A model generated the notes under the pieces. The model ran no database searches and was not told where the DNA came from. It saw only the letters and a list, made by a program, of their open reading frames with translations. A program made the translations under genes and the position numbers. Of a DNA stretch of 64,000 nt, positions 18,683-61,788 are shown piece after piece. This DNA comes from an uncultured Dysosmobacter sp. (GTDB lineage Bacteria; Bacillota; Clostridia; Oscillospirales; Oscillospiraceae), in assembly GCF_947631635.1 (NCBI RefSeq), contig NZ_CANRMB010000001.1, positions 248,001-312,000 of the forward strand, given 5' to 3'. Within the stretch, counting starts at the first letter, position 1. The number at the start of each line of letters is the position of its first letter.

Positions 18683-18745
18683 ATTATAGACAGGGATGGA
18701 AAAAAGTCAAGAGTAGTTGCAAAAAATGGGGAAGTGCGGTATGGT

Positions 18746-18932
18746 ATAGTCAACGCAGTTGGAAAGGAGTGCAGGCTCCTTTTCAAGCGGCGGACGGATG
18801 GTCCGCCTGCGCACAAGGCGCCCATGCGTTTCCCATGAAGTCAGGCGCAGAGGACCGCATAGGCGGTCTGCGGCGCTGCACAGCGCTGCATGGAAAAGAC
18901 TTTTTGGAAGTCTTTTCAACTGTGCCGGCTAT
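18746..18932. repeat. Hairpin-chain intergenic repeat, copy A
   Basis: Ends ATAGTCAACGCAGTTGGAAAG / CTTTTCAACTGTGCCGGCTAT (imperfect TIR). Internal hairpins AAAGGAG/CTCCTTT, GGCGGAC/GTCCGCC, GACCGC/GCGGTC, GCGCTG/CAGCGC, GAAAAGACTT/AAGTCTTTTC. Confidence 0.7.
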
Positions 18933-18989
18933 CAGAATAGAAAACCCGCTGCGTAAGGGTGCGCAAAAACAAGATTAGGAGAAGATCGC

Positions 18990-25417: not shown

Positions 25418-25454
25418 TAAGCGGTTCCTCCATTCGGCGTTACATGCGGGTGAT

Positions 25455-25632
25455 ATGGTCCATTCACTTGAAAAACCGCACGGGATTTTTCAAGCGGGCG
25501 ATGCCCGCTGTGCGTAAAGCGCACAGTGATTGCCTATGAAATGCAAATCAAGGCCGCGGTCCGCGGCCTGTCACAGCGCACATGCGCTGCGACACTTGAA
25601 AAGTGGATCTGCCGCTTTTCAAGTTATTTCAT
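25455..25632. repeat. Hairpin-chain intergenic repeat, copy B
   Basis: ~178 bp of consecutive hairpins: CTTGAAAAA..TTTTTCAAG, GCGGGCgatGCCCGC, GGCCGCGgtCCGCGGCC, CAGCGCacatGCGCTG, ACTTGAAAAG..CTTTTCAAGT; near-identical to the reverse complement of copy C. Confidence 0.85.
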
Positions 25633-25811
25633 TATAAACTCCTGATTATAAACTCCATCAGCACGGCATACCCTGCCAGGAAAAGCAGAAATATGGCGGC
25701 GGAAGCCAGCAGGCGGCCTTTGCGCCTTTGGCGGACGCCCTGGACCAGCAGGACGGCCGCGAGAAGCAACAGCAGCAGGGAGATGGGGGTCCAGTAGGCG
25801 GTGAGTCCCAT
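25632..25811 (-). CDS. Small membrane protein (59 aa)
   Basis: MGLTAYWTPISLLLLLLAAVLLVQGVRQRRKGRLLASAAIFLLFLAGYAVLMEFIIRSL; SD AAGGAGG upstream. Confidence 0.6.
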   Translation of the reverse strand: MGLTAYWTPISLLLLLLAAVLLVQGVRQRRKGRLLASAAIFLLFLAGYAVLMEFIIRSL

Positions 25812-37061: not shown

Positions 37062-37224
37062 GAGCCTATCCGCAAATAATGCGTATACGTCTTGCGGCCA
37101 TATTTAGCGTCATACTGCGTCGCTTTTCCTTGCCGGGCGATAGCCCGCCTGCGGAAAATCTCCTTATCTGGCGAAAAATCTGTCTCGCAATCCGCATATG
37201 CCTTATTTAAGGATAGGCTCTAAG
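37058..37224. repeat. Short inverted-repeat-bounded intergenic element (MITE-like), copy 2
   Basis: Terminal IR AAGAGCCTATCC (37060-37071) / GGATAGGCTCT (37211-37221); related in reverse complement to 2094-2210. Confidence 0.65.
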
Positions 37225-37349: not shown

Positions 37350-37386
37350 GTCCCGGCCAAGCGAAACTTGGCCGGGACAGATTTTA
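37350..37386 (+). terminator. Terminator-like hairpin in long intergenic region
   Basis: TGTCCCGGCCAAGcgaaaCTTGGCCGGGACAgatttta. Confidence 0.65.
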
Positions 37387-37566
37387 TAATCAAATTACTT
37401 GAAACGTGATCAATTCACGTTTCAAGTGTCACAGCGCATGTGTGCTGTGACAGGCCGCGGTCCGCGGCCTTGATTTGCATTTCATCGTCAATCGCTGTGC
37501 GCTTTCCGCGCAGCGGGCATCGCCCGCTTGAAAAATCCCATGGGATTTTTCAAGTGAATGGACTAT
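37384..37566. repeat. Hairpin-chain intergenic repeat, copy C (inverted relative to B)
   Basis: Reverse complement matches copy B over its whole length, with compensatory differences in the outer stems. Confidence 0.85.
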
Positions 37567-37677
37567 ATTTTCCTGAAAAAAGCCGCTGTCAGCGGCTTTT
37601 TCTTTTGCGTCTGTGACAAAATTTTGCGGAGTTTTTTTGCGTTCCTGCCCAAAATGTGGAACCTGCCAAAATTTTAG

Positions 37678-52105: not shown

Positions 52106-52106
52106 T

Positions 52107-52187
52107 ATAGTCGCCGCAGTGGAAAAGGATCCAAAAAATTCTTTTCCATGCAGCGCTGCTGTGCGCCTTTTCAACTGCGTTGGCTAT
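52107..52187. repeat. Hairpin-chain intergenic repeat, short copy D
   Basis: ATAGTCGCCGCAGTGGAAAAGG ... CCTTTTCAACTGCGTTGGCTAT imperfect terminal IR; internal GGAAAAG/CTTTTCC and GCAGCGCTGC. Confidence 0.6.
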
Positions 52188-57194: not shown

Positions 57195-58145
57195 CCGCCT
57201 GCGGGCGGGGACAGGGGATTGCACGGCTTTGCCGTGGGGGAATGCGGTGCATCACCGCAGAATGCACCCCCCATTTTCTTTGGTTGCGCCAAAGAAAACG
57301 GGCCGTGCACGGTCCAAAAGAAAAACGCTTTTTGTGTCCACAGTTGGCCCATCGGGCCAACTGTGGACGGACGGGAGTTGGTGGTTAGATGTGCCACCAA
57401 GCCCGGAAATCTTCTTTTGGGTGCGCTATACAGGGTACGAGAGTAGGAGTGCGTGCCCGCATTTGGGGGCTTAGGTACAAATTTGGGGTGGTCGACAAAA
57501 GGCTTTCAGCAACAAGCCCCGTGTGTTCCGCTTCACTGCACACTACCTGGGCAGTTACATTGGCCATCGACGGGTGCGCCGGGCCGGGTACGAGTTTAGA
57601 ACTGTGCTGTTGCAAGTTGGCGGCTTAGGCGTAGATTCGGGGTGGTCGTCGAAAGACCTTTACCACTGGCCGCGTGTGTTCCGCTTCGCTGCACACTACC
57701 TGGGCGGTTAAATTGGCCATCGACGGATGCGCCGGACTTGGTACGAGTTTAGAACTGCGCCGCTGTAGGCATTTCCGCAAGGACCCAAAGAGCGGCAGCG
57801 ACAGGAGCCCGCTGGTCCTTTCAGTCTTTGACCGACCTCGCAATTCCCATTCGCGTGGCTAAAAACCGAAAGATTTAGCAAGACTGTGCCCGCGCCCAAC
57901 GCTGAATCCAGCCTCGACCACCATCGGTCTCTTTCTGGGACCCCACGTCTTGTCCACAGTTGGCCCTAGGGGCCAACTGTGGACACAAAAGCGCCTTTCT
58001 TTTGACCGGGCGCGGCCGTCAAGGTGAGCCGCACAGCGGCGAGAAGGCCCTCTGGAGGGTTTTCTTTGGGCAAGACCCAAAGAAAATGGGGGCGCATTCC
58101 CGTGCCGCAAAGCGGCAAACCCCCGTCCCCGCCCCGTGGGCGGAA
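57195..58145. repeat. Large structured intergenic repeat R1 (inverted copy of R2)
   Basis: Hairpins GTCCACAGTTGGCCC-atc-GGGCCAACTGTGGAC (57336-57368) and TGTCCACAGTTGGCCC-tag-GGGCCAACTGTGGACA (57951-57985); capping TTTTCTTTGG/CCAAAGAAAA stems; 153-bp tandem modules (GTACGAG at 57435/57588/57741). Confidence 0.85.
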
Positions 58146-60853: not shown

Positions 60854-61788
60854 TTCCGCCCACGGGCGGGGACGGGGGAGTGTGCCGCTTTGCGGCACGG
60901 GAATGAACCCCCATTTTCTTTTCGGTTGCGCCGAAAAGAAAACGGCCGTTCACGGTCAAAAGAAAAGGCGCTTTGGTGTCCACAGTTGGCCCAATGGGTC
61001 AACTGTGGACGAGACGTGGGGTCTCAGAAAGAAACCGTTGGTGGTCGAGGGCAAATTCAGCGTTGGGCGCGGGCATGGTTTTGCTGAATCTTTCGGTTTT
61101 TAGCCACGCGAATCGGAATTGCGAGGTCGGGCAAAGACTGAAAGGACCAGCGGCTCCTGTCGCTGCCGCTCTTTGGTTCCTTGCGGAAGCGCCTGCGTGT
61201 GGGCCTTATATGGGATCAGACATTGCTGAAAGCTTTTTGATGACCAACCCGGATTTGCATCCACACCCTAACTTGCGGCGGCGCAGTTCTAAACCCGTAC
61301 CAAGTCCGGCGCACCTGGCAGAGGTCAATTCAACTGCCCAGGTAGTGTGCAGCAAAGCGGAACACACAGGGCTTGTTGCTGAAAGCCTTTCGATGACCAC
61401 CCCAAATCCGCACCCAAGCCTCCAAATATGGGCACGCACTCCTACCCTCGTACCAATTCCGACGCCCTCGGCAGAGGCCAATTTGACCGCCCAGGTAGTG
61501 TGCAGCGAAGCGGAACACACGGGGCCAGTGGTAAAAGCCTTTCGACAACCGCCCCAGATTTGCACCCGCGCCCCCAAATGCGGGCACGTACTTCTGCCCT
61601 CGTATCCGGTATAGCGCACCCAGCAGAAAATTTCCGGGCTTGGTGGCACATCTAACCACCAACCCCCGTCCGTCCAACTTTGCCCCAGAGGGCAAAGTTG
61701 GACACCCAAAAGCGTTTTTCTTTTGGACCGTGCACGGCCCGTTTTCTTTGGCGCAACCAAAGAAAATGGGGGGTGCATTCCCCCGTGA
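60854..61788. repeat. Large structured intergenic repeat R2 (inverted copy of R1)
   Basis: Hairpins GTCCACAGTTGGCCC-aat-GGGTCAACTGTGGAC (60978-61010) and GTCCAACTTTGCCC-caga-GGGCAAAGTTGGAC (61672-61703); TTTTCTTTTCGG/CCGAAAAGAAAA cap; ~153-bp tandem modules. Confidence 0.85.

Follow-up and report, generated by a model that had tools for sequence, protein, structure and literature searches.

The repeats described so far in bacteria that come closest to the element reported here are small and, in most cases, have been described as a single stem-loop. The repeat unit of pneumococcus (RUP), 107 bp long and listed in a review's table with a 9-bp paired terminus (PMC2229807), shares with our element a small gene-free body, a copy number of about 100, insertion at TA, termini like those of an IS630 element (IS630-Spn1) and a proposed mobilisation in trans (PMC2229807); for most repeats of this type one stem-loop formed by both ends has been described, whereas the element here is built of two three-hairpin modules (PMC2229807). 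Correia elements, or NEMIS, of Neisseria are likewise intergenic repeats that end in TA, measure 107 and 155 bp and have 24-bp inverted termini (PMC2229807), but their 5' end pairs with the 3' end and no hairpin chain with two closing stems has been described for them (PMC2229807). The CIR repeats of Caulobacter and Brucella have two self-folding arms and a linker, kept between species (PMC2229807); however, they are about 110 bp long, carry GANTC, have no terminal inverted repeat listed, and form just one stem-loop per arm, not a four-arm junction (PMC2229807). REP, BIME and REPIN sequences with their RAYT enzymes are also dispersed hairpins, at times in inverted pairs (PMC2817692, PMC3116915), but the units are smaller, REPs measuring 20–40 bp (PMC3733652), and the enzyme is of the Y1 type. 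In the open literature, we found no description of the element family reported here.

The element, about 183–193 bp long, occupies approximately 80–95 places in the genome of an uncultured Dysosmobacter sp. (Oscillospiraceae), where covariance models distinguish at least two subfamilies. Judged from its sequence, it is probably a gene-free miniature inverted-repeat transposable element (MITE) on which an IS630-type transposase would act in trans, a reading to which we assign a probability of about 0.8. In the window, i.e., the whole stretch of 64,000 nucleotides analysed, a preliminary description had pointed to two copies, B and C, matching along their full length in opposite orientation. Both are real and only their ends had to be moved, by 1–4 bases: copy B spans 25454–25636 on the plus strand, 183 bp including the TA at both ends, and copy C 37385–37567 on the minus strand. 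When copy C is reverse-complemented, it is 88% identical to copy B over 189 nt; each copy has six hairpins, and their order is the same in both, as had been claimed. The genome-wide search proposed at that time yielded many further copies: from the own genome, which comprises 3.34 Mb in 59 contigs, blastn recovered 40 long ones, and a covariance model, R1, built from 28 own-genome copies, gave 82 rows at ≥70 bits. In 60 relatives blastn gave no match beyond the own genome, and covariance models were needed. A second model, R2, built from 44 copies of many species, added the second own-genome subfamily, of 189–193 bp, which has about 62% of the aligned columns in common with the first (130/209) and an identical layout. 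With R2 we also found in the window a third full copy at 18745–18933 (plus strand, 189 bp, CAGTTGAAAA subfamily) and a short degenerate relative at 52106–52187 (no strand assigned), with ends TATAGTCGCCGCAG...CTGCGTTGGCTAT and a weak score of 26 bits, neither of which was in the preliminary description.

The 183–193 bp consist almost wholly of stems and short linkers, with no coding capacity for a transposase. Shorter forms of 163, about 140, 121, 100 and 55 bp are present in the own genome, and the 55-bp form consists of one terminal hairpin only. Single-hairpin forms of 54–55 bp were found at L302, L323, L325, L326 and L329; some 54–55-bp forms are near-perfect palindromes in which one end is present twice, and they may have arisen by deletion between hairpins or by fold-back copying.

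As for the distribution, R1 matched 19 of the 86 genomes of the genus, own included, and R2, under strict filters, 12 of 400 sampled genomes of the family, in 8 of 106 genera. In a pattern scan of genomes of 84,980 species, nearly all of the matches listed were from Oscillospiraceae (Oscillibacter, Dysosmobacter and unnamed Clostridia), and two single archaeal matches among them look like chance. The phage and plasmid collections searched gave no match. Twelve pattern matches came from viral contigs, and those read were due to chance except for one genuine copy in an IMG/VR contig (L211:1840-2022), which sits precisely between a phage tail sheath gene's stop codon and the ribosome site belonging to the tail gene that follows.

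Mobility is recorded at the insertion sites. We observed a duplication of the target TA at eight insertions, considering both empty sites in relatives and two nested insertions. At copy C, the relative G073 has the empty site GATTT-TA-TTTTC, to be compared with GATTT-TA[TAATC...GGACTA]TA-TTTTC in the window, and five further own copies (L053, L291, L295, L299 and L316) have a clean TA empty site in relatives. One of these, L053 (G000:C1:196963-197144), sits in a coding frame, to which it adds four residues and then a stop, the uninterrupted sequence being found in G090. The nested insertions, in other genomes, place the element within a copy of a second family, described below, at TTTTTA^TCAGGAAA, with TA on both sides. 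Own copies prefer the target TGA-TA-AAA, a preference confined to three bases on each side and weaker in 129 copies from other species; the nested site fits it exactly. Since some relatives have the same flank without an insert, the preference seems to reside in the target rather than in the element. The termini are inverted: 89 and 88 end matches were counted in the own genome for the two ends, and none for a reversed control pattern. In copy B they are TATGGTCCATTCACTTGAAAA at 25454–25474 (plus strand) and TATAATGAAATAACTTGAAAA at 25616–25636, read on the minus strand. The element is thus short, multi-copy, dispersed and non-coding, with terminal inverted repeats and a TA duplication by comparison with empty sites, as expected for a MITE.

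Of the two features that mark an IS630-dependent MITE, ends in common with an IS630 element were found, and a transposase in the same genome was not. No DDE_3 (IS630) transposase was detectable in the own assembly, which is 94% complete in 59 contigs, nor in most carrier genomes; repeated insertion sequences often drop out of assemblies, and those searched here are incomplete. The IS630 partner could also have been lost, or the partner could be of another kind. A matching IS630 subfamily surfaced only with a genus-wide search. In a species of the same genus (G031, locus L427) we found an 878-bp, frameshifted IS630-family element (NF033545, 112 bits with a cut-off of 100), which ends in TATAGTAAAACCAGTTGAAAA and TATAGTTACCACAGTTGAAAA and is flanked by GGA and AAA. 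An IMG/VR contig (L444) carries a transposase with 63% protein identity to that of L427 and ends TATAGTATAACCACTTGAAAA and TATAGTAAAATCACTTAAGAA; the two elements belong to one IS630 subfamily. Both have ends of the element type, TATAGT...CA[C/G]TTGAAAA, and the C/G alternative (CACTTGAAAA, CAGTTGAAAA) is common to the IS630 ends and the element family. The right end of L427 agrees at 19–20 of 21 positions with the right ends of 38 copies of the element, mostly in other species, whereas the three full copies of the window agree with the IS630 ends at just 11–17 of 21. In the source species of L427 itself, R1 found no element. The IS630 copies of G034 and G102, with ends TAGAGCAATT and TATAGCAA, seemed unrelated to the element, and a search of the fetched loci for pairs of inverted ends around an ORF left one candidate, L202, which proved to be two separate elements flanking parA/parB-like genes. 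As with RUP and IS630-Spn1, it is from the similarity of ends and target that we infer mobilisation in trans.

The element is further characterised by its fold. From 5' to 3', TATAGTC is followed by a closing stem enclosing three hairpins, CTATGAAG, a second closing stem with three hairpins, and GACTATA; within each half the hairpins abut one another. A long hairpin with TTGAAAA is outermost in both halves, so that one half is in inverted orientation relative to the other and the model finds matches on the opposite strand too. In the left half of copy B (plus strand), hairpin 1, long and outermost, lies at 25467–25494, hairpin 2 at 25495–25507 and hairpin 3 at 25508–25526; a linker at 25527–25550, made up of the 3' strand of the left closing stem, the conserved CTATGAA and the 5' strand of the right one, leads to the right half, with hairpin 4 at 25551–25569, hairpin 5 at 25570–25593 and hairpin 6, again long and outermost, at 25594–25624. 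The two strands of the element folded as RNA gave z values of −7.5 and −6.8 against dinucleotide shuffles, and folding as DNA gave −6.9; in no case was any shuffle as low. When the halves were folded alone, a closed stem with exactly three hairpins was obtained in 153/177 left and 149/177 right halves, the 177 extracted sequences including a few chance pattern matches, and in 21/354 dinucleotide-shuffled controls. The reverse strands behaved in the same way, and thus either DNA strand is predicted to be able to fold into two four-arm junctions.

The covarying stems reported for copies B and C are a property of the whole family. Changes on both sides were found in 10 pairs among 28 own copies, while shuffles led us to expect 3.5 and none of 500 was as high. 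Across species, 35 of the 47 consensus pairs showed double-sided compensatory change in 44 copies, and the covariation score was 0.462; shuffles scored 0.171, and sliding the partners gave no more than 0.117. Moreover, the closing stems (helices 1 and 5), whose strands are 70–80 nt apart around three hairpins, also covary. Deviation from the own-genome consensus amounted to 7.5% at stem positions vs 18.3% at unpaired positions. Related species show the same anatomy despite mostly different sequence, with the total length held at 175–195 bp. Covariation, together with folding energies below those of shuffles, therefore bears out the earlier view of a structured family rather than a random palindrome. 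Identity with a known Rfam family had been named as a finding that would overturn this view; at gathering and relaxed thresholds no credible family appeared, and none reached its gathering score.

A similar design was found in the second family, which starts with TATACTAATCCC, is about 174 bp long and has six hairpins. Four copies, namely the one in the own genome and three more, among them a 199-bp variant of G096 (L075:1501-1699), fold into two closed stems, each of which encloses three hairpins. The own copy is at L318:1790-1963 (G000:C1:5489-5662), with termini TATACTAAT...ATAGTATTATA; further loci are L088, L163, L111, L181, L131, L140, L147, L200 and L142, with elements of the first family nested at L163 and L140. 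Since this family has the same fold, the fold can occur with more than one set of termini, although the two families may share an ancestor. What is new here is a conserved pair of four-arm junctions, found again in a second family whose termini differ. The window holds other repeats as well: long inverted repeats at 57252–58003 and 60957–61788, 80–89% identical around about 3 kb, which contain 153-bp tandem units and GTCCACAGTTGGCCC palindromes, and palindromic repeats at 37063–37222 and 2096–2208, with ends AGAGCCTATCC/GGATAGGCTCT and AGAGCTTATCC/GGATAAGCTCT, which probably form another repeat family.

It is tempting to suggest, although only tentatively, that the two four-arm junctions are a working part of the element, namely that IS630-dependent MITEs spread or survive through the folding of their DNA, as a cruciform or as a single strand, across the Oscillospiraceae and in the second family as well. 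A possible alternative, of which we are doubtful without dismissing it, is that the element is mobile while its paired arms are kept by template-switching mutation and structured ancestry, the fold having no function. Hairpin arms in bacteria do get corrected towards perfect palindromes, and near-perfect palindromic derivatives of 54–55 bp occur here. Moreover, neither L427 nor L444 has the hairpin chain, although their ends are the same, so their transposase does not need the fold; the existence of 55-bp single-hairpin derivatives indicates that the full fold is unneeded, at least for persistence. Correction of hairpin arms, on the other hand, does not readily account for covariation in closing stems that enclose three hairpins, for a length constant across species, or for the identical layout of a family with other termini.

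The preliminary description had looked towards transcription and 3' UTRs; instead, the inverted termini, the TA duplication, the IS630-type ends and the lack of strand or orientation bias indicate mobile DNA. It is highly unlikely that the element is a structured non-coding or cis-regulatory RNA, for example at mRNA 3' ends, dispersed by chance and selected for its RNA fold, even if the covariation is strong, the folds are very stable and 36% of the copies have convergent genes on their two sides. A functional RNA encoded by one strand would be expected to have more G.U than A.C on that strand. A cruder count on the mixed cross-species alignment did give 117 G.T vs 44 A.C exceptions, but this excess was gone when the count was restricted, within aligned subfamilies, to pairs that were predicted for both strands (83:81); we trust the latter count more because it avoids misaligned columns and the G.U bias in the choice of pairs. 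The location bias suspected earlier was found in part: of 66 own copies, placed using a simple hexamer-model gene caller, 30 lie between co-directional, 24 between convergent (36%) and 12 between divergent genes, which is some enrichment between convergent genes, whereas among the 30 in co-directional gaps 16 had the orientation of the genes and 14 the opposite. One own copy was seen to interrupt a gene. This placement fits mobile DNA under selection against damage, not an oriented RNA element, and the TA duplication and the lack of an Rfam match both speak against an RNA. Because G.T and A.C exceptions are equal, gene orientation is unbiased and both strands of this pseudo-symmetric element fold alike, its structure looks to be a DNA-level one.

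Movement as REPIN/BIME-like repeats by a RAYT (Y1) transposase acting on folded single-stranded DNA, suggested by hairpins in inverted pairs and one RAYT-like gene in the own genome (NF047646, 63.9 bits, below the cut-off of 80), is hardly plausible, as no element adjoins this gene, Y1 genes are missing from the element-rich G100 and G101 and present in the element-free G108 and G060, and the TA duplication, which is not known from REP/BIME/REPIN, and IS630-type inverted ends suit a DDE enzyme. The RAYT-like gene is located at L339:1468-2025 (minus strand), on contig C22 of the own genome.

For the MITE mobilised in trans, we propose the following mechanism. Most likely, an IS630-family (Tc1/mariner-type) transposase would recognise a stretch of about 21 bp, TATAGTNAANNCA[C/G]TTGAAAA, at both ends, excise the element and insert it at TA, preferably TGA-TA-AAA, with duplication of the TA. 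Each half is a module in which one closing stem encloses three abutting hairpins, the modules being in inverted orientation. As to why the fold is kept, the guess that we prefer is selection on source copies, either for the folding of extruded or single-stranded DNA, e.g., during replication or post-excision repair, or for a compact transposition complex; template switching that corrects imperfect palindromes may assist.

Bacterial MITEs are usually pictured as one long stem-loop, formed by two inverted ends with a core between them. In the present element, a conserved, covarying fold with two four-arm junctions extends over the entire length and is present in many species, and the design recurs in a second family; a fold conserved across species is unusual for MITE-type elements. 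The natural variants of 183, 163, about 140 and 55 bp, with paired or broken stems, are ready material for experiments, and the high degree of structure in MITEs becomes open to testing, by asking whether DNA folding matters in transposition, excision repair or tolerance by the host.
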